DNA of 64,000 bases from Microbacterium candidum (GTDB lineage Bacteria; Actinomycetota; Actinomycetes; Actinomycetales; Microbacteriaceae). Each line of letters opens with the position of its first letter. Position 1 is the first letter of the stretch. The notes below the pieces were generated by a model that searched no databases, was not told the origin of the DNA, and saw only the letters and a program-made list of their open reading frames with translations. This document shows, piece after piece, positions 1 to 9,091 of the stretch. The translations under genes were made by a program, and so were the position numbers. The stretch covers positions 186,001 to 250,000 of the forward strand of contig NZ_JASXSZ010000001.1 in NCBI RefSeq assembly GCF_030315975.1, given 5' to 3'.

Positions 1-352
1 CGTCCGGCCCGATCGGGCCCCGGCCGTCGATCGGCCGCCCGAGGCCGTCGAGCACGCGGCCGAGGACGGCGTCGCCGGTCGGCACGAGCATGGGCGCCCC
101 GGCATGCCGGACTCGCGCGCGAGCCGTGATGCCCTCGACCGGGCCGAGGGGCATGCAGCGCGCGGTTCTGCCCTCGACCGCGACGATCTCGGCATCCACC
201 GGCCTGCCGCCCTCCGTGTCGATCCGCACCCGGTCGCCGACGGCGGCGTCCACACCGCGCACCTCGACGCCGAGCCCGACGACGGCCGCGACGACGCCCG
301 AGCGCTCGGGCCGCGCAGCCCCGAGCACCCGCTGCCATGTCGAGGTCGTCAC
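1..352 (-). CDS. fliI: Flagellum-specific ATP synthase FliI, N-terminal part only
   Basis: The reading frame enters from the left edge, so only about the first 117 residues are here. The protein is the export ATPase of the flagellar type III secretion apparatus. The visible part is the beta-barrel N-terminal domain of F1-type ATPases and ends in the typical run GRVLDGLGRPIDG, which precedes the P-loop; the P-loop itself lies outside the window. The start is a GTG whose GTGA overlaps the fliH stop by four bases, the usual sign of translational coupling. The family is certain; the C-terminus cannot be judged. Confidence 0.9.
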   Translation of the reverse strand, partial: MTTSTWQRVLGAARPERSGVVAAVVGLGVEVRGVDAAVGDRVRIDTEGGRPVDAEIVAVEGRTARCMPLGPVEGITARARVRHAGAPMLVPTGDAVLGRVLDGLGRPIDGRGPIGPD

Positions 353-975
353 GCCGTGTCCCCGTCGTCGCCGCGCAGCGCCCCGGCCGCGCGGTCGAGG
401 GCCGCGGCGATCCGCGCATCCACTGCGCCGTCTTCGATCTCGACGATCGCGCCGCCGGGATCGACGTCGGCGGACGAGCTCACCTCGACGCGCGGCAGCA
501 TGCCGTTCGCCCGCAGCGTCTCCACGTCGCGCTCGTTGAAGGAGACGCGCCGCCACGCGGCGACCGGTGTCTGGGCGAGCGCGCGACGCAGCGCATGGGC
601 CGCGGAGCGCGCGGCATCCGACAGCTCCGCATCCAGGATCGTGGTCGAAAGCTCCACGGCCAGCTCTTCGATCCGAGCGGCCGCGACGCCGGACAGCCGG
701 TCGGCGCGCGCGTCGAACTCCGTCCGGGCGCCGTGCAGCGCGACGAGGGCGGAGGAGAGCGCGCGGCGGGCCTCGGCATCCCTGATCCGCTCCCGCTCGC
801 GTTCCACCGCCAGCTCGCGCTGGGCCTCTTCGAGCGCCGCCCTGCGGCCCTCGGCGAACCCGTCCGCGTAGCCGCGCGCACGGGCCCGCGCGGTCTCGTC
901 GCGGATGTCGACGGGCGCGTCGCCGATACGCGGCGCCACGAGCGGCGTGAAGGCGGAGTCGAACACGGCGGTCAT
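349..975 (-). CDS. fliH: Flagellar assembly protein FliH
   Basis: This is the negative regulator and stator-like partner of the FliI export ATPase, acting at the cytoplasmic face of the basal body. The 208-residue protein has the family layout: a variable N-terminus, a long charged, Ala/Arg/Glu-rich helical stretch (roughly residues 25-120) resembling the ATP synthase b/delta stalk, and a C-terminal globular part containing VDPGGAIVEIEDG, the most conserved FliH segment. It is the first gene after promoter element A and overlaps fliI by 4 bp. No strong ribosome binding site is visible before the ATG, so the exact start is less certain than the identity. Confidence 0.9.
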   Translation of the reverse strand: MTAVFDSAFTPLVAPRIGDAPVDIRDETARARARGYADGFAEGRRAALEEAQRELAVERERERIRDAEARRALSSALVALHGARTEFDARADRLSGVAAARIEELAVELSTTILDAELSDAARSAAHALRRALAQTPVAAWRRVSFNERDVETLRANGMLPRVEVSSSADVDPGGAIVEIEDGAVDARIAAALDRAAGALRGDDGDTA

Positions 976-1016
976 CCCGGAGGTAGATCTCGGTGCCGGT
1001 CCCTGGCCAGGTCGAA

Positions 1017-1069
1017 GAGCGATCCGTGCTCGGTGCCGACTATCGCGACACGCGCGGGCGGCGGTAACC
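1017..1069 (-). promoter_or_regulatory. Flagellar promoter/leader element A (for fliHI)
   Basis: Reading the minus strand, GGTTAC (1069-1064), exactly 14 bases, then GTCGCGATAG (1049-1040). It lies between the fliG stop and the fliH start, with GTCGCGA ending 67 bp before the fliH ATG. Identically spaced copies precede flgB and hag. Further downstream GAGCACGGATCGCTC (1031-1017) also matches the flgB leader with one substitution. I infer a flagellar sigma-factor promoter. It does not fit the classic sigma-28 consensus well, apart from a loose resemblance of CGCGATAG to GCCGATAA. Confidence 0.7.
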
Positions 1070-1074
1070 GCGGC

Positions 1075-2178
1075 CTACTCGACGAATTCGTCCTCGTCGT
1101 CGCGCGAGAGCGTGATCTGCTCCGCCGCCTCCATCTCCCGGATGACGCGGACCACCTCCGCGCGCGCCTCGTCGACCTGGCGCATGCGCACGGGCCCGAG
1201 GGTCCGCGTCTCCTCGGCCAGATTCTCGCGGTTGCGCTCGGTCATGTTGCGGTTGACGACCTCGCCGATCTGCTCGTCCGCGCCCTTCAGCGCGAGGGCG
1301 AGCACGCGCAGATCGAGCGTGCGCAGCACGCGCTGGGCGTCGCGGTCTTCGAGGCGCGCGATGTCCGCGAACGTGACCATGCGACTGCGGATGTCCTCCG
1401 CGAGCGCCTGATCGCGCCCCTCGAGGCTCGCGAGCAGCGACTTCTCGAGCGCCGTGTCGGACCGGTTGATGATCTCGACGAGCGGCTGCACCCCGCCGAT
1501 GGCCTCATGCGCGTCGCGGGTCGCGAAGACGCCGGTGCGCGTCCGCAGAGAGTCCGCCACGATCGAGATCGCCTCCTGTGTGGCGGTGCCCATCGTCGCG
1601 ATCGCCTGGGCGACGTCGGTGCGCAAGGGGTCCTGCAGGGCGGCGAGCACCGCCGCGGCGCGATCGGCGCGCAGGTTGGCGAGCACGACGGCGACCGTCG
1701 TGGGAAGCTCGCCCTCGAGGATCGTCGCGAGCTGTGCGGGGTCGGCCGCGTTCAGGAAGTCGAACGACACGGCCCCTTGCGACATGACGCGGCCGACGAT
1801 CCCCACGGCCTTCTCGCGGCCGAACGCCGTCTCGAGGAGACCCGTGGCGAGCTCCTGGCCGCCGCGCGACGGCACCGAGCCGCCCGACGCGATCCGGCGG
1901 AAGTCGCCGAGCGCGCGCGCCGTGGAGGCGACGTCCACCCCGCCGAGCTGCGTGAGCTCGGCGGCCAGCAGCTCCGCACGGGCCTCCCCGAGACGCCGCA
2001 GCACCTCCGCACTCGTCGCGCGGTCCATGTTGAGCAGCACGATGGCGGCCTTGCGCAGGCCGCTCATCGCCGGGACGACGGCGCTCGAAGGCACCGGCTG
2101 CACCGCCGGCGCCGCCGTAGCCGCCGTGGCCGCCGTGGCCGCTGGGACCGTGGTCGACGAGGGGGCGAGCAGGCTCAT
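1075..2178 (-). CDS. fliG: Flagellar motor switch protein FliG
   Basis: FliG is the rotor protein that transmits torque and links the MS ring (FliF) to the C ring. The 367-residue protein carries an unusual Ala/Val/Pro-rich extension over about residues 1-38, then the N-terminal domain (GLRKAAIVLLNMD), the middle domain, and a C-terminal torque domain with the family's LALALKG and LGPVRMRQVDEA motifs. The EHPQ-type motif of the middle domain is replaced by ELPT in this protein. The ATG overlaps the fliF stop (ATGA), and the gene ends its transcription unit just before promoter element A. Confidence 0.96.
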   Translation of the reverse strand: MSLLAPSSTTVPAATAATAATAAPAVQPVPSSAVVPAMSGLRKAAIVLLNMDRATSAEVLRRLGEARAELLAAELTQLGGVDVASTARALGDFRRIASGGSVPSRGGQELATGLLETAFGREKAVGIVGRVMSQGAVSFDFLNAADPAQLATILEGELPTTVAVVLANLRADRAAAVLAALQDPLRTDVAQAIATMGTATQEAISIVADSLRTRTGVFATRDAHEAIGGVQPLVEIINRSDTALEKSLLASLEGRDQALAEDIRSRMVTFADIARLEDRDAQRVLRTLDLRVLALALKGADEQIGEVVNRNMTERNRENLAEETRTLGPVRMRQVDEARAEVVRVIREMEAAEQITLSRDDEDEFVE

Positions 2179-3815
2179 ACCGTCGCCTCGTCCATCAGGC
2201 TCACGAGGGCCACCGCGACGGCCTCGGGGTCCGTCCGCGCGATCTGGTCGATCTCGCGGCGGCGGCGCTCGACGAGCACCTGGTCGGGTTCGGGCTCGGG
2301 CTCCTGGATCTCCAGCACGGCGGTCGGCAGCGCCTTCGGCGGGTCGGATGCGGGCAGCGCCATGGGCTCGGAGAGGGCGCGCAGCGCGCGCAGCTTCTGC
2401 TCCTCGGTCTCGGTCATCGCGCCGAGCGCCTTGAGCGCAGCAGCATCCTCTTCTGCGTCGCGCCTGCGTCGCGAGCGGACCGCGACGAACACGGCAAGGA
2501 TGATGGCGGCCAGCACGATCGCCCCGCCGATGATCGCGGTGCGGACGAGATCGGCCGTGCGCGCGGCGTCCTTCTCCGCCTGCGCGTCCGCGAGCGCCTT
2601 GTCGGCGGTCGCAGCGCCGGCCGTGCTGAAAGGGACGAACTCGACGGTCACCGTGTCGCCGCGTGCGGCGTCGACGCCTGCGGCGTTGGCGACGAGCGCC
2701 TGCACCTGCGCGGCCGTCACGGTGCCGGCGGCGGCCTGGTTGACCGCGATGCTGATGGTCTGGCGCCGCACCTCCCCCGCGGGGGTCACGGTCTTCTCGG
2801 TCGTCTTGTCGACGGCGTTGTTCCGGGTGGCCTCCTCGGACTGGAACGAGCCGGTTCCGTTCGCGCCGCCCGGCACGGCGATGTTGTCGGGGCCGAGCAC
2901 ACCGGTGCCTCCTCCCGCGCCTCCCGTGTAGGTCTCCTTCTTCACCTTCTCGGCCTGACTGAGGTTCCCCCCGGGCGCGGTGTAGGTCTCCTGCATCCGC
3001 TCGGAGGTCGAGTTGGCGACGTCGGCGGCGACCGTGACGGTCGCGTTGCCCGGGCCGACGATGGTCTCGAGCATCTGCCCGACGGCTGCCTCGACCTTCG
3101 TCTCGTACTCGGTCGCCTGCTTCGACGCCTTGCCGGTGAGGCCGGCGCCCGCCGCCGACAGGACCTTGCCCGCCTGGTCGGTGACCGTCACGTCGTCCGG
3201 CTTCATCCCGGGGACGGCCGCGCTGGTCAGGTGCACGATGGCATCCACCTGCTCGTCGCTGAGGGTGCCGCCCTTCTGGGTCTTGATGAACACCGACGCG
3301 GTCGGGTCCTGCTTCTGCGAGACGAAGACGCTCTCCTTCGGAGTGGCGATCTTGACGCTCGCCCCGGTGACGCCGTTCATGGCGCTGATCGTGTTGGCGA
3401 GCTCGCCCTCGATCGCACGCTTGTACGTCACGTCCTGCTGAAACTCGCTGGCGGTCACCCCCATCTTGTCCAGCAGGGTGTAGCCGCCGGTGGTGTCGCC
3501 GGGAAGACCGGCCGCCGCGGCGGTGAGACGCTGCGTGTACACCTGGTCGTCCGGGACGAGGATCGTGGCGCCGCCCTCGGTCAGCTCGTACGGGACACCG
3601 GCGGACTTCAGCTGCTCGACGACGGCCGACGCATCCGTCGCGCTCAGGCCGGTGAACAGCGGGCTCATCTTCGGCTGGGTGATCCACGCGCCGAGCGCGA
3701 TGGCGCCCATGACGAGCAGCGCCACCCCGATGACGGCGATCGTGCGCTGCGGTACGGAGAACCCCGACACGACGCGCTTGACGCGGTCGACGAAGCTGGT
3801 GAGCATGTGCGGCAT
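2175..3815 (-). CDS. fliF: Flagellar MS-ring protein FliF
   Basis: FliF oligomerises in the cytoplasmic membrane to form the MS ring on which the rotor and export gate are built. The 546-residue length is normal. A first transmembrane helix lies at about residues 25-47, the YscJ/FliF ring-building motifs follow (for example LFTGLSATDASAVVEQLK), then a Gly-rich, low-complexity periplasmic region near residues 290-330, and a second transmembrane helix near 435-457 before a cytoplasmic tail that should bind FliG. A second in-frame ATG three codons in is an alternative start. It is separated from fliE by 3 bp and overlaps fliG by 4 bp. Confidence 0.96.
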   Translation of the reverse strand: MPHMLTSFVDRVKRVVSGFSVPQRTIAVIGVALLVMGAIALGAWITQPKMSPLFTGLSATDASAVVEQLKSAGVPYELTEGGATILVPDDQVYTQRLTAAAAGLPGDTTGGYTLLDKMGVTASEFQQDVTYKRAIEGELANTISAMNGVTGASVKIATPKESVFVSQKQDPTASVFIKTQKGGTLSDEQVDAIVHLTSAAVPGMKPDDVTVTDQAGKVLSAAGAGLTGKASKQATEYETKVEAAVGQMLETIVGPGNATVTVAADVANSTSERMQETYTAPGGNLSQAEKVKKETYTGGAGGGTGVLGPDNIAVPGGANGTGSFQSEEATRNNAVDKTTEKTVTPAGEVRRQTISIAVNQAAAGTVTAAQVQALVANAAGVDAARGDTVTVEFVPFSTAGAATADKALADAQAEKDAARTADLVRTAIIGGAIVLAAIILAVFVAVRSRRRRDAEEDAAALKALGAMTETEEQKLRALRALSEPMALPASDPPKALPTAVLEIQEPEPEPDQVLVERRRREIDQIARTDPEAVAVALVSLMDEATV

Positions 3816-3818
3816 CGG

Positions 3819-4160
3819 CTACGCCTGCATCCTCATGATGTCGTTGAAGGCGGCCACGCCCCGGTCGCGCACCGCGACGACGAGGTCGAGGGTGACGGAT
3901 GCGCGCGCGGCGGCGATCGTCGCCTGGTGGATGTCCTCGAGGTTGCCTGTGACGGCCCTGACGGCCAGATCGTTCGCCGTGGACTGCAGCTGCTGCAGGT
4001 TGTCCACCGCACCCGTGAGCGCGGTCGCGAACGGTCCCGCCGACGCGGGGTCGGCGGGGGTCGCGGCTCCGACGGGATCCGCGGCTCCCGCCCGCTCGAA
4101 ACTCAAGGCCGAGAGCGGACTCACTCCCGCCGCCGAGACGGCGTCCACGGGAAGGGACAT
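3819..4160 (-). CDS. fliE: Flagellar hook-basal body protein FliE
   Basis: FliE is the adaptor between the MS ring and the proximal rod. The 113-residue protein shows the conserved C-terminal half: DIHQATIAAARASVTLDL, then VAVRDRG and the terminal DIMRMQA. The N-terminal third is Ala/Pro-rich and poorly conserved, as is usual. The start was chosen at the ATG that overlaps the flgC stop by one base (TGATG). A longer in-frame reading exists but would run through flgC. Confidence 0.93.
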   Translation of the reverse strand: MSLPVDAVSAAGVSPLSALSFERAGAADPVGAATPADPASAGPFATALTGAVDNLQQLQSTANDLAVRAVTGNLEDIHQATIAAARASVTLDLVVAVRDRGVAAFNDIMRMQA

Positions 4161-4552
4161 CAGCTTCGCCCGATCTGGAGCGCGGCTTCGTAACTGGTCT
4201 TGGCGCGGTCGACGACCGCGGCGTTCGCCTGGTAGCCGCGCTGGGCGAGGATGAGCATGCTCATCTGGTCGCCGAGGTCGACGTTCGGGTACTGCACGTA
4301 GCCGTTCGCATCCGCGTACGGATGATCCGGCTCGTAGACGAGCTTGCCCTGCGCCTGCGACTCCACGACCCCGGAGACGTAGACGCCGGGGCTCTGCGTG
4401 CCTTCCGCGACGACGACGTACTTCTCGCGGAACGCGGCCTGCCCGGGAGGCGTCGCAGTGTTCACGTTGGCGATGTTGTCGCTCAGCGCGTCCAGCCACT
4501 TGCGGTGGACGTTCAGGCCCGTGCCGGCGATGCCGATCGCGTCGAAGGTCAT
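4160..4552 (-). CDS. flgC: Flagellar basal-body rod protein FlgC
   Basis: FlgC is a proximal rod subunit exported through the flagellar secretion system. The 130-residue protein carries the rod/hook N-terminal signature (LSDNIANVNTATP, near residues 23-35) and the C-terminal YPNVDLGDQM and LILAQRGYQANAAV helices typical of FlgC. It overlaps flgB by 4 bp and meets fliE at a TGATG junction, so flgB-flgC-fliE-fliF-fliG are almost certainly one translationally coupled operon. Confidence 0.95.
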   Translation of the reverse strand: MTFDAIGIAGTGLNVHRKWLDALSDNIANVNTATPPGQAAFREKYVVVAEGTQSPGVYVSGVVESQAQGKLVYEPDHPYADANGYVQYPNVDLGDQMSMLILAQRGYQANAAVVDRAKTSYEAALQIGRS

Positions 4553-4896
4553 GCCGACGCCTGCCCGATCGCCTTGGTGACCGCCGACGCCTGGGCGCCC
4601 AAGGCCTGCGTGGCGAACTGGTAGCGCAGGACGGTGTCGATGTTCGACAGCGTCTCGGTGTCGAGGTTCACGTTGTTCCCGTTCAGACGCGTCGGCTCGA
4701 GCGACCGCTCGACGCTCGCCTGCGCGGATCCCGACCCGTCGGCGACGGCGGCGCGCAGCGCATCCTCGAACTGGACGCGCTTGGCGTGATACCCGGGGGT
4801 GTTGATGTTCGCGATGTTCTCGGCGATCGAACGCTGTCGCAGGGACAGGCCGTCGAGGGCGCTCGAGAGCGCGGTGGCGGTGACGGATTCGAGCAC
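4549..4896 (-). CDS. flgB: Flagellar basal-body rod protein FlgB
   Basis: FlgB is a proximal rod subunit. The 115-residue protein has the rod-family N-terminal motif NIANINTPGYHAKRVQFED near residues 27-45 and the C-terminal LNGNNVNLDTE and RYQFATQALGAQ segments specific to FlgB. It is the first gene of the rod/MS-ring operon; promoter element B lies 75 bp upstream of its ATG. Confidence 0.95.
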   Translation of the reverse strand: MLESVTATALSSALDGLSLRQRSIAENIANINTPGYHAKRVQFEDALRAAVADGSGSAQASVERSLEPTRLNGNNVNLDTETLSNIDTVLRYQFATQALGAQASAVTKAIGQASA

Positions 4897-4945
4897 GGCT
4901 GCACTCCGGACGTGGGTGGCGAAGCCGATCCGTGGCCGAGGCGTC

Positions 4946-4998
4946 GAGCGATCCCTGCTCTCGGCCGACTATCGCGACAGCACCGCGCCTGCGTAACC
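4946..4998 (-). promoter_or_regulatory. Flagellar promoter/leader element B (for flgB operon)
   Basis: On the minus strand GGTTAC (4998-4993), 14 bases, then GTCGCGATAGTCGGC (4978-4964), followed by GAGCAGGGATCGCTC (4960-4946). It sits in the gap between the small gene at 5002 and the flgB ATG at 4896. The match to element A continues through the leader for about 50 bases, well beyond a minimal promoter, whereas the hag copy shares only the GGTTAC and GTCGCGA boxes. The GAGC...GCTC ends could pair in RNA or bind a protein dimer. Confidence 0.7.
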
Positions 4999-5001
4999 GG
5001 C

Positions 5002-5280
5002 TCAGCCCTCGACGTCGAGATACGCGGGGGCGTCTTCGCGGCCGGACGGAACCCGGCGCAGTGCCGCGAGCTCGCGCGCGACGTTCGCCCGCGAGAGCAC
5101 GAGACCGTTGATCATCGCCTGCTGGCGTGCCAGCACCATGCGCGCGCGCTCCACGATCTCCGCAGGCGGCGGTCCGGGCGGCGGCTGGAACGGCTCGAAG
5201 GACACCTGCTCGTCAGCGGCGTCGAGCGCGCGTTCGAAATCGTCGAGGACGGCGAGCCAGGCGGCGAGGTTCTCCGACAT
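5002..5280 (-). CDS. Small flagellar-locus protein, FliT-position hypothetical
   Basis: A 92-residue acidic protein with a predicted helix (ENLAAWLAVLDDFERALDAA), a short Pro-rich turn near residues 33-40 (PPPGPPPAEI), and a second long helix. There is no signal peptide or membrane segment. It lies 7 bp after fliS and before flgB, the position often taken by the FliD chaperone FliT, and its two-helix character would fit a small export chaperone. That role is inferred from position and shape only; I do not recognise the sequence. Confidence 0.7.
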   Translation of the reverse strand: MSENLAAWLAVLDDFERALDAADEQVSFEPFQPPPGPPPAEIVERARMVLARQQAMINGLVLSRANVARELAALRRVPSGREDAPAYLDVEG

Positions 5281-5287
5281 GGGCGGC

Positions 5288-5710
5288 TCAGGCGAGGGCG
5301 GCGACGGATGCCCCGACCGGGGTCTGCGCGTCGGCGGCGGCGTGCCACGCGTCGCGCAGGGGCGCGACGATGTCGCGGCACTCGGTCGTGGCGGCGCGGT
5401 CGCGCGAGACGTTCGCGACGACCAGTCGGCCGGTGAGATACGTATAGAGGCCACGCAGCTCCGCGGCGCCGTCCCACGCATCCGTCAACGAGGCGCTGAG
5501 CTCGCCCACGATCTGCTGCGCGTGCATGAGGTGGGTTCCCGCGGCGGACCAGAGCCCGGCGTCCTGCGCAGCAGCGGCTCGGTCGACGTCGACGAGCAGC
5601 CGGTCGTACAGCATCGTGACGAGCCGCTCCGGCGAGGCCGATGCGACCTGCTGCTCGAGGTACTGCTGCTTCGCGTGCGCGAGGGATGCGGCGGACATCG
5701 GGGCTCCCAT
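5288..5710 (-). CDS. fliS: Flagellar export chaperone FliS
   Basis: FliS binds the C-terminus of newly made flagellin and keeps it from polymerising in the cytoplasm. The 140-residue protein is an all-helical FliS, with the tell-tale SPERLVTMLYDRLLVDVDRA near residues 27-46 and LTGRLVVANVSRD further on. A second ATG four codons in (MSAAS) is an alternative start. It follows fliD after 3 bp, as expected for a fliD-fliS pair. Confidence 0.93.
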   Translation of the reverse strand: MGAPMSAASLAHAKQQYLEQQVASASPERLVTMLYDRLLVDVDRAAAAQDAGLWSAAGTHLMHAQQIVGELSASLTDAWDGAAELRGLYTYLTGRLVVANVSRDRAATTECRDIVAPLRDAWHAAADAQTPVGASVAALA

Positions 5711-5713
5711 GGG

Positions 5714-7081
5714 TCAGGATGACGCGGACTTGCTGAGGCCGGCGAGCTGAGAGGTGAGCCAGGACGACTGCGACTGGAAGCCCGAGAGCTGCACTTCGAG
5801 GCTCGCGTACGTCCGCTCGAGGGCGGCGCGGCGGTCTTCGAGACGTCGATCCCATTGCGTCACCTGGTCTTTGAGGGTCTTGACCTCGGACTCCTGGCCG
5901 GTGATGCGTCGGGTCAGCATCCCGTCGTACGTGTCGGAGTACTGGCTCGCCGTCTGCGCGACCCGGCCGGCGACCGCGGTGAAGATCGCCTGCGTGCCTT
6001 CGGGGTCCGCCGCCATCGCCTTCCCGAACTTCTCGGAGTCGAAGGACAGCGCGCCGTAGCGGTCGATCGAGATGCCGACGGACGACGGGGAGACCCCGCC
6101 GACGGGGTACTGCACGGCGTTCGCCAACGCGCTGCGCAGCGACCGCACCGTGCTGTCGCCCGTGAACACGCCGAGCGTCGTCTTCTCTCCCGCGGCCGCG
6201 ACCGTGGCCTTCGACCCGTTGTCGATGCGGGTGAGGAGGCTCGCGATGTCCTTGACGAACGACTCGGCCGTCGCGCTCTGGGCCTTGGGGTCGTATGCGA
6301 CCGAGACCGTCACCGGGTCGATGCTCGCTTTCGAGACGGTGACGTCGATGCCCTGGCCGATGCCGGAGAAGGTGTTGCTCGCGCTCGTCAGCGTCTGCTC
6401 GGCCGCGGTGCCTGCGAACAGGCGGATGCGGGCGTCCGCGCCCTGCGCGAGTATCGCCGCACCGGGCTCGGTCGCCATGTCAGGGGCGACGCCGGCGTCG
6501 ACGCCGGCGGCGGAGCCGCGGTACAGCGTGAACGCGGCCGCTCGGCCGGTCGCGGTGGAGGACAGCTGGATGCGGAAGAGCGGATTCCCGGAGGCATCCT
6601 TCCCGCCCGGGACCACGCTCGCGGTGATGCCCGCCTTCGCCGCGTTGACGGCGTTCGCGAACTCGGCGGCCGTCGTTCCGGGCGAGGCGACCTCGGTCTT
6701 CGTGCCGTCGGAGGCGACGAGCGTGAACGTCCCGCCCCACGCGTCGACTCCGGCGGCCGCGGTCACGACCGAGTGGGCGGATGCCACGGCGTCGACGACG
6801 ACGCTCGTCGAGAACGGGCTTGCGGTGGGCCCTGCCGTGACCGTCACACCGTCGGCCGACGATGTCGCGGCGAATGCCGCGAGCGACTGCGCCGATGCGG
6901 CCGTCTTCGCCTTCGCGGCGAGGGCCTGCAGCGAGGCATTGAGCGTCTGCAGATTCCCGATCATCGTGTTGCGATCGGTGATCTTCGCGGTGATCAGGTT
7001 CTTCGGGATCGCCGCCACGTTCATGAGGGAGTCGATGATGTCGGCCGTCTTCAAGCCCGAGACCATGCCGTCGATCTGCAT
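5714..7081 (-). CDS. fliD: Flagellar filament cap protein FliD
   Basis: FliD forms the cap at the filament tip under which flagellin polymerises. At 455 residues it is a compact FliD. The N-terminal signature is MQIDGMVSGLKTADIIDSLM, the centre holds the variable domains, and the C-terminal coiled coil (about residues 385-450) is clear. The ATG at 7081 was chosen because GAGAGGAAAGG sits just upstream and the protein begins exactly at the family start; the frame stays open further upstream but that stretch contains the terminator hairpin. Confidence 0.95.
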   Translation of the reverse strand: MQIDGMVSGLKTADIIDSLMNVAAIPKNLITAKITDRNTMIGNLQTLNASLQALAAKAKTAASAQSLAAFAATSSADGVTVTAGPTASPFSTSVVVDAVASAHSVVTAAAGVDAWGGTFTLVASDGTKTEVASPGTTAAEFANAVNAAKAGITASVVPGGKDASGNPLFRIQLSSTATGRAAAFTLYRGSAAGVDAGVAPDMATEPGAAILAQGADARIRLFAGTAAEQTLTSASNTFSGIGQGIDVTVSKASIDPVTVSVAYDPKAQSATAESFVKDIASLLTRIDNGSKATVAAAGEKTTLGVFTGDSTVRSLRSALANAVQYPVGGVSPSSVGISIDRYGALSFDSEKFGKAMAADPEGTQAIFTAVAGRVAQTASQYSDTYDGMLTRRITGQESEVKTLKDQVTQWDRRLEDRRAALERTYASLEVQLSGFQSQSSWLTSQLAGLSKSASS

Positions 7082-7122
7082 GCCATCGCCTTTCCTCTCG
7101 TGCATCGCGGGTCGGGTGGGAC

Positions 7123-7157
7123 GACGCCCGGGCGGGTGCGCGACCCGCCCGGGCGTC
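7123..7157 (-). terminator. Terminator hairpin between hag and fliD
   Basis: A perfect 15-bp stem (arms 7123-7137 and 7143-7157) with a 5-base loop, nearly all G/C and without a U-run, lies after the flagellin stop and before fliD. It would let flagellin mRNA be made in large excess over fliD-fliS. Between it and hag, a 15-base sequence (ATCGA[A/G]GCTCTGGGG on the plus strand) occurs twice, 34 bp apart (7181 and 7215). Confidence 0.75.
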
Positions 7158-7265
7158 TGTGCGCGTGAGGCACCGGCTGCATCGAAGCTCTGGGGAAGCT
7201 CGGGCGCCGGATGAATCGAGGCTCTGGGGTCCTCGGGGGATTTTCGGCCCCACAACGCGGCTTGA

Positions 7266-8090
7266 TCAGCGGAGCAGCTGCAGAACGCCCTGGCCCGACT
7301 GGTTGGCCTGCGCGAGCATCGCGGTGCCCGCCTGCTGCAGGATGTTCGACGCGGTGTACTTCACCATCTCCGAGGCCATGTCGGTGTCGCGGATGCGGCT
7401 CTTCGCGGCGGACAGGTTCTCGGCCGAGACCTGCAGCGAGTTGATCGTCGACTCGAAGCGGTTCTGCGCGGCACCGAAGCCCGCGCGGGCCGTCGAGACG
7501 TTGTTGATCTGGGTGTCGACCGAGGCGATCGACGTGAGGGCGTTCGCCGCCGACGTGACGTCGAGGCCCTTGATCGTGGCGCCGAGGCCCGAGAAGTCCG
7601 TGAGGGTGACGCCGATCTGGTCCTCGGCGGCGGTCGAGCCCGCACCGACCTGGAACGTCAGGGTGTTGGTGCTGTCGAGCAGCTTGATCCCGTTGAAGTT
7701 CGTGCCGGCGGCGACGCGCGTGAGCTCGTCGCCGAGGGCGTCGATCTCGGTCTTGATGGCCGTGCGCGAATCGACGTTGTTCGAGTCGTTGCCGGCCTGG
7801 ACCGCCAGATCGCGGACGCGCTGCAGGATCGAGTGCACCTCGGTGAGCGCACCTTCAGCGGTCTGGATGACCGAGATGCCGTCCTGGGCGTTGCGCGTGG
7901 CGACGTTCAGTCCGTTGACCTGCGACCGCAGGCCCTCGGAGATCGCGAGCCCTGCGGCGTCGTCTGCGGCGCGGTTGATGCGCAGACCGCTCGACAGCTT
8001 CTCGAGCGACTTCGAGACGTTGTTCTGGTTGGCGGACAGGTTGCGGTACGCGTTGAGCGCTCCGACGTTGGTTGCGATCTGAAGACCCAT
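7266..8090 (-). CDS. hag: Flagellin
   Basis: This is the filament subunit, exported by the flagellar type III system. The 274-residue protein is a short flagellin made almost only of the conserved D0/D1 helices. The N-terminus starts MGLQIATNVGALNAYRNL and contains LSSGLRINRAADDAAGLA; the C-terminus has SRIRDTDMASEM and ends in QSGQGVLQLLR. The surface-exposed central region is only about 90 residues, so no D2/D3 domains. A strong GGAGGT ribosome binding site and promoter element C precede it; a strong hairpin follows. Single gene, probably monocistronic. Confidence 0.97.
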   Translation of the reverse strand: MGLQIATNVGALNAYRNLSANQNNVSKSLEKLSSGLRINRAADDAAGLAISEGLRSQVNGLNVATRNAQDGISVIQTAEGALTEVHSILQRVRDLAVQAGNDSNNVDSRTAIKTEIDALGDELTRVAAGTNFNGIKLLDSTNTLTFQVGAGSTAAEDQIGVTLTDFSGLGATIKGLDVTSAANALTSIASVDTQINNVSTARAGFGAAQNRFESTINSLQVSAENLSAAKSRIRDTDMASEMVKYTASNILQQAGTAMLAQANQSGQGVLQLLR

Positions 8091-8147
8091 GATTACCTCC
8101 GTGGCTGGGGTCGGATGCAGGCCCTTCCGTGGCCCTGCGGAACGTAC

Positions 8148-8176
8148 ATTCGCGACGTCTCCGCGTGGCCGTAACC
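8148..8176 (-). promoter_or_regulatory. Flagellar promoter element C (for hag)
   Basis: On the minus strand GGTTAC (8176-8171), 14 bases, then GTCGCGA (8156-8150), 59 bp before the flagellin ATG. Both boxes and their spacing match elements A and B exactly, while the flanks differ (GTCGCGAATG here, GTCGCGATAG there). This is the most minimal copy and helps define the two boxes as the shared signal. Confidence 0.75.
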
Positions 8177-8190
8177 ACGCGCCGGAGACT

Positions 8191-9027
8191 TCAGGATGCG
8201 GCGGCCAGCACGCCCGCGGATGCCGGCTTGTCGAAGACGGTGTCGAAGAACTCCGCCTTCGTCTTCGTGGAGCGGTCGCACGTGCCGCCGGTCTCCCACG
8301 CCTCCATCGCCTCGCGCATGAGCGTGAGGCCTGTGGTGCGCAGCTTCGACACGTACGCGTGACTGACCCCGAGGTCTGCGGCGATGTCCTTCACGGTGCG
8401 GTCGTCGAGATAGATTCCGCGGATGACCCGCTGCATCGCGGCGGGCAGCGCCTCGACGACGCGCATCAGCATCCTGCGGCTCTCGGCCTGTTCGGCGGCC
8501 AGCTCGGGCAGGATGACGCTGTCGGTGAGGTCTGCGGCCTGTCGTCCCTCGTCGGCCGCGAAGTGCGCCTCGAAGCTCGTGCCCGTCCGCACCATCTCGT
8601 CGAGCTTCAGCATCTCGCTGACCGCATCCGCATCCAGGCCCGACTCCCGCGCGAGTTCCGCGATCGTCGCGGCACGACCCGTGCGCTCGCGAACGGCGTC
8701 GGCCGCCGCACGCACCTTCTCGATCTTCGCCCGTCCTCGCTCACCGGCGGGGTCCGCGGCGCGCATCTCATCGAGCATCGCCCAGTTGATGTGGTTGCGA
8801 GCGAAGGCGCCGAACGGGATGCCGCGCTCGGCGTCGTACGCGAGAGCCGCCCGGGCGAGCCCGAGACGGGCGGCCGAGAGCAGGTCGTCCAGGTCGACGT
8901 GCGGCACGGTCCGGGCCTTCTCGACCGCGAGATACGTGGCCAGCGGCATGTTGTCCTGAGCGAGCCGCTCAGGCGAAGGCGACGAATGCGACGAGGAACC
9001 AAGAGAGGTGAGAGGAATGCTCGACAA
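8191..9027 (-). CDS. fliA: FliA/WhiG-type RNA polymerase sigma factor
   Basis: A sigma-70-family factor of the flagellar/sporulation (sigma-28) class that should direct RNA polymerase to the flagellar promoters. The 278-residue protein has region 2 near residues 30-95 (VDLDDLLSAARLGLARA and FGAFARNHINWAMLDE), region 3 near 105-160, and region 4 near 195-250 with the helix-turn-helix VKDIAADLGVSHAYVSKL. The chosen start is a TTG with GGAG five bases upstream; the first ATG, at residue 27, would still keep all sigma regions. It lies directly upstream of hag on the same strand. It is the obvious candidate to read the three GGTTAC-N14-GTCGCGA elements. Confidence 0.9.
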   Translation of the reverse strand: MSSIPLTSLGSSSHSSPSPERLAQDNMPLATYLAVEKARTVPHVDLDDLLSAARLGLARAALAYDAERGIPFGAFARNHINWAMLDEMRAADPAGERGRAKIEKVRAAADAVRERTGRAATIAELARESGLDADAVSEMLKLDEMVRTGTSFEAHFAADEGRQAADLTDSVILPELAAEQAESRRMLMRVVEALPAAMQRVIRGIYLDDRTVKDIAADLGVSHAYVSKLRTTGLTLMREAMEAWETGGTCDRSTKTKAEFFDTVFDKPASAGVLAAAS

Positions 9028-9049
9028 TGTGACTCCGTGGCTGAATCGA

Positions 9050-9091
9050 CTCGTTAACGAGCGAAACTAACACATTCTCACGAAATCGTGA
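9050..9091. promoter_or_regulatory. Paired palindromes upstream of the sigma-factor gene
   Basis: CTCGTTAACGAG (9050-9061) is a perfect 12-bp palindrome, and TCACGA-AA-TCGTGA (9078-9091) is a perfect inverted repeat with a 2-base spacer. They sit 17 bp apart in a locally AT-rich stretch just before the sigma-factor start. They look like operator sites governing the entry point of the flagellar cascade. No flagellar master regulator is encoded in the window, so the binding protein is unknown. Confidence 0.5.

Follow-up and report, generated by a model that had tools for sequence, protein, structure and literature searches.

A 64,000-nucleotide stretch of the Microbacterium candidum genome (the window; C1:186001-250000 of a 4.35-Mb genome) contains flagellar genes preceded by a two-part motif, GGTTAC-N14-GTCGCGA, and raises the question of which protein reads this signal. 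A preliminary description of the window took the motif for a lineage-specific flagellar promoter, or a promoter plus an operator, in a block that also encodes a FliA-type sigma factor, here called FliA1. By comparing motif, sigma factors and leader sequences among relatives, we hypothesize that FliA1, which belongs to the FliA (sigma-28) family and has evolved fast in one clade of Microbacterium, very probably recognises GGTTAC-N13/14-GTCGCGATAGT as its promoter, and that the leaders downstream of this promoter carry CsrA sites. The observed basis comprises the motif distribution, the difference between orthologous sites, the change in sigma sequence, the conservation of the leaders and covariation in the leader hairpin of the flagellin gene hag. 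The best reading of these sequences, from which we infer the pairing of sigma factor and promoter, is that a sigma-28-type promoter and the sigma factor that reads it have changed in sequence in concert, while the putative RNA switches behind the promoter have been kept.

The window holds three exact matches to GGTTAC-N14-GTCGCGA, all on the minus strand (1043-1069, 4972-4998 and 8150-8176) and standing, as first described, before fliH, flgB and hag. No match arises in 100 dinucleotide shuffles of the window, so that none is expected by chance and a chance origin is ruled out; GTCGCGA by itself is unremarkable (56 occurrences vs 72 expected), and only the two-part motif is special. The distance from GTCGCGA to the start is 67 bases for fliH (975), 75 for flgB (4896) and 59 for hag (8090), which bears out the 59 to 75 bp reported earlier. 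The whole genome contains six exact copies, all inside one 22-kb flagellar block (C1:172080-194176), and the other three stand before fliP, a small FlbD-like gene and flgN; the earlier picture of three copies is corrected accordingly. All six exact sites (6/6) lie before flagellar operons, with gene names given partly by reading: fliH, flgB, fliF, fliP and the FlbD-like gene were named by reading and by tblastn between relatives, and flagellin, FlgN, FlhB, FliR, FliO, FliN, FliM, MotB and the sigma regions by Pfam. A weight matrix for which 11 genomes supplied 43 distinct exact sites lengthens the consensus to GGTTAC-N14-GTCGCGATAGTCGG. In the M. candidum genome GGTTAC is combined with GTCGCGATAGT at five of the six sites; the sixth, that of hag, reads GTCGCGAATGT, with ATGT after GTCGCGA vs TAGT at the other five. 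Allowing up to three mismatches, the N14 form finds three extra sites in this genome (two to three mismatches; five in the reversed control), and the N14 and N13 scans together yield 13 weaker sites; outside the flagellar block there is no match with fewer than two mismatches.

Among 366 genomes of the same genus, scanned for the motif and for the window's sigma protein before the two lists were compared, 46 encode a FliA1-type sigma factor (at least 46 percent identity to that of the window). The motif is present in all 46, in two or more copies in 45, and these genomes account for 175 of the 188 matches in total. The 320 genomes without FliA1 have 13 copies, one apiece in 13 genomes, and the reversed-pattern control gives 10 matches in the 366. 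One of these 13 carriers (G259) is a genome of 79 percent completeness that has only sig2, the second FliA-type gene also found in M. candidum outside the window; four others (G020, G070, G282 and G311) share one identical sequence, which is also one of the seven matches of G016. In the 38 FliA1 genomes with listed positions, 129 of 137 motif matches lie within 30 kb of fliA1, seven are on other contigs and one is far away; enrichment at flagellar genes in relatives, which the preliminary description had proposed as a check, was thereby found. Across the order, sampled evenly, the longer motif occurs in three of 396 genomes, all of this genus (one of 109 genera), a sample whose flagellated share was not determined; GGTTAC-N14-GTCGCGA is absent from all 15 genomes scanned from other families. 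Of the 11 named loci that hold a close relative of the window's sigma factor, 10 are from Microbacterium and one is from an unplaced member of the Microbacteriaceae. The idea of a lineage-specific promoter tied to the block's own sigma factor is upheld by these counts. Two simpler candidates are excluded by them: an ordinary housekeeping promoter, as the motif tracks the presence of FliA1, and a general actinobacterial motif, given its absence from the other families and its restriction to one genus.

The near-canonical sigma-28 promoter TAAC-N15-GCCGATAGG is distributed in the opposite sense, with 44 of 61 sig2-only genomes, one of 46 FliA1 genomes (G187, on another contig) and one of 259 genomes with neither sigma factor. 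We compared the stretches upstream of orthologous genes between 11 FliA1 genomes and 10 sig2-only genomes. The sig2-only genomes have TAAC/TTAC-N15-GCCGATA or GTCGATA at hag, flgB and flgN (10/10 each; the flgB site is TAAC/TTAC-N15-GYCGATAG in 10/10), neither promoter type at fliH (10/10), and neither at fliP or the FlbD-like gene in the three genomes where these could be checked (20 kb per genome was taken for the other seven); the new motif is absent at every gene checkable in the ten. By pattern, the FliA1 genomes carry the new motif at hag in 10, flgB in 10, flgN in 10, the FlbD-like gene in 11, fliH in 8 and fliP in 8, and the canonical promoter at none of the six genes (0/11 at each). 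The pattern misses hag of G021, flgB of G001 and fliP of G322, which are exact matches to the original motif (a pattern limit or the locus edge); at fliP of G149 there is a site ending GTCCCGATAGTC, the pattern's own G149 fliP entry having been the flgN site and so discarded; the flgN site of G116 is degenerate; and G353 has no new motif at fliH or fliP. The hag leaders of all loci obtained, 62 distinct sequences, divide into 37 with the new motif, 16 with the canonical promoter and nine, from other families, with neither; no leader has both. Outside the genus (G026, G029 and G031, read by eye), flgB is preceded by CTCAAG or CTTAA and then by a GCCGATGA-like or weaker sequence.

The spacing is nearly the same in the two promoter types. 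All six M. candidum sites are N14, in agreement with the fixed spacing first described, and relatives depart from it: at hag in the FliA1 clade N13 is found in 23 and N14 in 14 of 37 sites, and among 77 distinct sites ending GTCGCGAT N14 is found in 67 and N13 in 10. From TTAC to CGCGATAG the FliA1 genomes have 15 (N13) or 16 (N14) bases, which fits the sigma-28 spacing of about 15, and the canonical hag sites are N15 in 16 of 16 (14 to 16 allowed). The earlier statement that the classic consensus is unmatched needs qualification: TAAA and GCCGATAA are indeed absent, and the motif is nonetheless related to that consensus, standing where relatives have near-canonical sigma-28 sites (TAAA-N15-GCCGATAA). 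In the M. candidum genome itself, the canonical promoter with one mismatch gives three matches vs eight in the control, and none stands out. The hag sites (ATGT in 22 of 37, mostly N13) form a gene-specific promoter variant beside the GTCGCGAT sites (continuing AGT in 73 of 77, mostly N14).

FliA1 matches Pfam sigma-70 regions 2, 3 and 4, region 2 barely at the cut-off, and the best relative with a solved structure is FliA of E. coli (PDB 6pmi, E = 2.6e-17). Region 2.4 reads DPAGE in 33 and DPAGV in two (G149 and G150) of 35 FliA1 rows, and the DW..R signature of this region, a mark of the FliA/WhiG family in our reading of these alignments, is kept in 23 of 25 sig2-type rows and lost in two diverged sig2 copies (G116 and G149). 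The helix of region 4.2 has VSK in 33 of 35 FliA1 rows (ISK in G011, VNK in G353) vs SQ in most others. In a tree of 16 FliA1 and 25 sig2-type rows, FliA1 groups as a single clade (100/100) whose branch is about two changes per column long, and in a FliF tree of the same clusters the 11 FliA1 clusters form one clade (stem 0.38) that is sister to the 10 sig2-only clusters; we infer that the sig2 type is the ancestral state, which sets the direction of change. That sig2, the more ordinary FliA of this genome, should read the motif in place of FliA1 would suit the position of its gene, which in M. candidum is separated from the closest motif copy by about 4 kb, but is highly improbable: the motif is present in FliA1 genomes without a strong sig2 match among the seven candidates scored per genome, sig2 keeps DW..R in G000, G001, G021, G322 and G353, and sig2-only genomes have canonical promoters. 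FliA1 stays our preferred reader. The sig2 gene of M. candidum lies near a gene for an HU-like protein (C1:168082-168459), and no canonical promoter stands out in that genome.

Behind the promoter, the leaders of flgB, fliH and fliP have two short hairpins 21 to 24 bases apart, mostly with ANGGA loops, and the hairpins of flgB, fliH and hag look like CsrA sites. The operator half of the earlier proposal is probably better replaced by such CsrA-type RNA leader hairpins. An RNA model, R1, was built from 39 flgB, fliH and fliP leaders and matches those 39 by construction; in the M. candidum genome it finds fliP, fliH and flgB strongly (52.7 to 64.9 bits, all in the model), with the next match at 23.2 bits (E 0.01), and the fliH leader, a predicted pair of CsrA sites 23 nucleotides apart, scores 52.7 bits. 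Matches of 18.7 to 23.9 bits elsewhere were taken as noise. Above that level and outside the model lie matches in L134, L023:5883, L133:9226, L147 and, barely, L046 (24.4 bits); the L056 match is at noise level by score (23.9 bits), yet lies 22 nucleotides before flgB. Each of the ten sig2-only genomes has one R1 site, 22 to 26 nucleotides before flgB; FliA1 genomes have three sites (eight genomes), two (G063 and G149) or one (G353); and in other families one site precedes flgB in G026, G029, G031 and G035, with G032 at noise level by score, and none is present in the DNA obtained from G023, G034, G036 and G037. Because sig2-only genomes and other families carry the flgB site only, the flgB leader is old and the extra copies are specific to the FliA1 clade. 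Mean leader identity within the same genome is 0.77 for flgB vs fliP (n=9) and 0.74 for flgB vs fliH (n=6), and mean flgB leader identity is 0.79 inside the FliA1 clade and 0.70 to sig2-only genomes; these values fit, and do not prove, a copying of the flgB leader to fliP and fliH.

The hag leader has a hairpin upstream, a predicted CsrA site, and a second predicted CsrA site at the Shine-Dalgarno sequence. Its hairpin covaries across 43 distinct sequences (77 doubly changed cells vs 24.9 +/- 4.3 when shuffled, reached by 0/500; slid controls give 7 to 15 or fewer in most cases), the number of pairs with a double change (seven) being reached by 34/500 shuffles. Should the downstream hairpins simply stabilise the RNA, or be bound by an RNA-binding protein other than CsrA, no link to CsrA would be needed; we regard this as unlikely. 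ANGGA occurs in both hairpins of 39/39 aligned flgB, fliP and fliH leaders (partly by selection, nearly all having been picked by that pattern), an ACGGA hairpin is present in 62/62 hag leaders, all of which, read by eye, also have A(C/A)GGAGG ahead of the start, and of 38 genomes searched, 17 have CsrA, 16 FliW and 16 a flagellin over the cut-off, the same 16 having all three (G034 has CsrA without FliW or a flagellin over the cut-off). What speaks for such non-CsrA hairpins belongs with the observations that tell against our proposal, which are collected below.

First, the flgB-type hairpins have nearly invariant stems and weak covariation (their pairing is reached by 160/500 and their covariation score by 8/500 shuffles), and the two weakest of the ten sig2-only flgB leaders (G379, 28.1 bits; G022, 24.4 bits) have GAGGA, not ANGGA, in hairpin 1. 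Second, the examined FliA1 clusters form a single clade, so that the co-occurrence of motif and sigma factor in 46/46 genomes counts as one evolutionary event; the sigma tree also drew a long-branch warning from the tool, with G353 among the long branches. Third, the N13 form with up to three mismatches finds ten extra sites in the M. candidum genome, each with three mismatches, vs one in the reversed control. Fourth, the hag promoters of the FliA1 clade have ATGT after GTCGCGA in 22 of 37 cases and TAGT in one of 37, having lost the ATAG half of the -10 element; this departure from GATAGT may reflect strength tuning or a second reader. Fifth, a sig2-type gene is kept in 27 of 46 FliA1 genomes, and finally, TCGCGA is palindromic, so that a dimeric regulator could own that half of the motif. 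The last three points can be joined into another explanation, namely that the motif is the site of a dimeric activator or repressor overlapping a housekeeping-sigma or sig2 promoter, with which FliA1 merely coincides: the palindrome is the very part kept at hag when ATAG was lost, and sig2 persists in those 27 genomes. We consider this quite unlikely, since the motif replaces sigma-28 promoters with their spacing kept (with N13 the -35 element is as far from CGATAG as in canonical sites, with N14 one base farther), both of its halves differ along with the sigma factor, and it is still present in the 19 of 46 FliA1 genomes without a strong sig2 match, a number in which sig2 may have been missed in some genomes because only seven candidates were scored per genome.

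A promoter read by FliA1 remains our proposal, and would work as follows. At hag, flgB and flgN the -35 element would have changed from TAAC to (GG)TTAC and the -10 element from GCCGATAG to GTCGCGATAG, in parallel with the loss of DW..R from region 2.4 of FliA1 and the change of SQ to SK in the recognition helix of its region 4.2; the new motif is also present at fliP, the FlbD-like gene and fliH in the majority of the 11 closely examined FliA1 genomes. FliA1 holoenzyme is predicted to initiate transcripts a few bases upstream of the first hairpin, 5 to 10 bases after GTCGCGATA, and CsrA dimers would bind the leader hairpins. At hag, CsrA would cover the Shine-Dalgarno sequence and act as a repressor that FliW antagonises, as in Bacillus. 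The two sites of flgB, fliH and fliP, 21 to 24 nucleotides apart, are close to the predicted 5' end and precede the Shine-Dalgarno sequence, and for this reason CsrA may either stabilise or repress these messages. It also seems reasonably likely that, inside a single genus, a flagellar sigma factor shifted its specificity jointly with the promoters it serves, so that the older FliA was orphaned, is decaying or has been lost, and that a cassette of flgB promoter plus CsrA leader then spread to fliH and fliP in the cluster, taking about three promoters to six under shared two-layer control; the early-branching G353, with the new sigma factor, new promoters and one leader cassette, would represent an intermediate.

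FliA1 itself would be made from a different promoter. Upstream of fliA1 there is no copy of the motif, as noted at the outset, and where it would stand lie TGTTAGTTT and the palindrome CTCGTTAACGAG, which possibly represent a housekeeping -10 element and the operator of a regulator of fliA1. TGNTANNTT is found near 32 of 35 FliA1 genes vs none of 25 sig2-type genes, and a CTCRTAAACG-like half near 25 of 35 vs two of 25; with at most two mismatches the palindrome occurs nine times in the window (1.9 expected), and in its exact form at this place only. The Shine-Dalgarno region of fliA1, GCCACGGAGTCACATTG (9025-9041, minus strand), resembles the hag CsrA site, and a similar stretch is common to many of the FliA1 genes compared, though not all (G277 is without it). 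In G011 a perfect GGTTAC-N14-GTCGCGATAGT stands about 560 kb from fliA1, before a gene (L143:828-2180, minus strand) that by reading seems to encode an M23-type peptidase with a coiled coil, which might hydrolyse the cell wall where the flagellum passes.

Table 1. Coordinates of the features discussed (window positions, or contig C1 where so marked).
Feature	Position	Strand	Remarks
fliH	349-975	-	name by reading
fliH leader	994-1031	-	hairpin 1 GAGC[ACGGATC]GCTC 1017-1031; hairpin 2 GCC[AGGGACC]GGC (3 pairs) within 994-1009
Predicted FliA1-type promoter of fliH	1039-1069	-	-35-like GGTTAC 1064-1069, N14, -10-like GTCGCGATAGT 1039-1049
fliF	2175-3815	-	name by reading; basis of the cluster tree
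flgB	4549-4896	-	name by reading
flgB leader	4923-4960	-	tandem hairpins GAGC[AGGGATC]GCTC 4946-4960 and GGCC[ACGGATC]GGCT within 4923-4938; predicted CsrA pair upstream of start codon
Predicted FliA1-type promoter of flgB	4968-4998	-	GGTTAC 4993-4998, GTCGCGATAGT 4968-4978
hag (flagellin)	7266-8090	-	Pfam Flagellin_N
hag Shine-Dalgarno site	8091-8104	-	CCACGGAGG; predicted second CsrA site
hag leader hairpin	8117-8138	-	ACGGA loop, here one mismatch or 7-nucleotide loop; predicted upstream CsrA site
Predicted FliA1-type promoter of hag	8146-8176	-	GGTTAC 8171-8176, GTCGCGA 8150-8156
fliA1	8191-9027	-	divergent FliA-type sigma factor, predicted reader of the motif
fliA1 upstream region	9050-9072	-	TGTTAGTTT (9064-9072) and palindrome CTCGTTAACGAG (9050-9061)
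sig2	C1:167055-167852 (L013:17056-17853)		second FliA-type gene with DW..R, outside the window
fliW	C1:168844-169191
csrA	C1:172108-172350

The sigma-28 start signal is very similar across distantly related motile bacteria, and a changed version is thus of interest. Sigma factor and promoters that differ between sister clades, with one early-branching member, would make co-evolution testable by swaps of domains and promoters; the motif would also provide the correct promoter for annotating a group of motile bacteria, and the leaders predict CsrA control of basal-body operons in actinobacteria. Among the literature matches listed, in a search whose coverage excludes most subscription journals, none dealt with this promoter or with CsrA leaders in Microbacterium. 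A paper on flagella in Actinobacteria (PMC10746217) includes CsrA, FliW and FliA among the genes searched, and 'promoter' and 'Microbacterium' do not occur in the portion of its text available to us.

How, then, does this system compare with known ones? Bacillus SigD uses the same sigma-28 consensus as E. coli FliA and Streptomyces WhiG. The flagellar promoter of the FliA/WhiG family consists of a -35 TAAA and a -10 GCCGATAA, a consensus shared by E. coli FliA and Streptomyces WhiG (PMC8325347, PMC2859248). Like that promoter, the motif described here is two-part, stands before flagellar operons and has nearly the same distance from CGATA to the -35 element; unlike that promoter and its near-canonical forms, it has a -35 GGTTAC in place of TAAA or TAAC, a -10 GTCGCGATAGT without GCC before GATA, constant GG and GT flanks, and N13-14 between the named blocks. 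The sigma factor differs from E. coli FliA (6pmi), with DWVPRSVR of region 2.4 replaced by DPAGERxR, SQ replaced by SK in region 4.2, and a long branch.

For CsrA, one source (PMC7652899) describes ANGGA sites in loops, the bridging of two sites 10 to 63 nucleotides apart, repression at the hag Shine-Dalgarno sequence with FliW as antagonist, and protection of the flhDC 5' end. By position, hag would fit the repressive case, and flgB, fliH and fliP the 5'-proximal one. CsrA control of several flagellar leaders would not be new in kind, because in Campylobacter jejuni CsrA already binds many flagellar leaders, with FliW as antagonist (PMC4894983); in that study flgB is hardly enriched (1.6-fold), whereas here flgB has the most widely kept predicted sites after hag. 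A further parallel is the CsrA-FliW-Hag switch of Bacillus subtilis (PMC7652899): both have two sites in the hag leader, here predicted, one of them over the Shine-Dalgarno sequence, and csrA and fliW are present. The system described here differs from that switch in belonging to an actinobacterial order and in its additional predicted tandem sites, which precede flgB and, within the FliA1 clade, also fliH and fliP.

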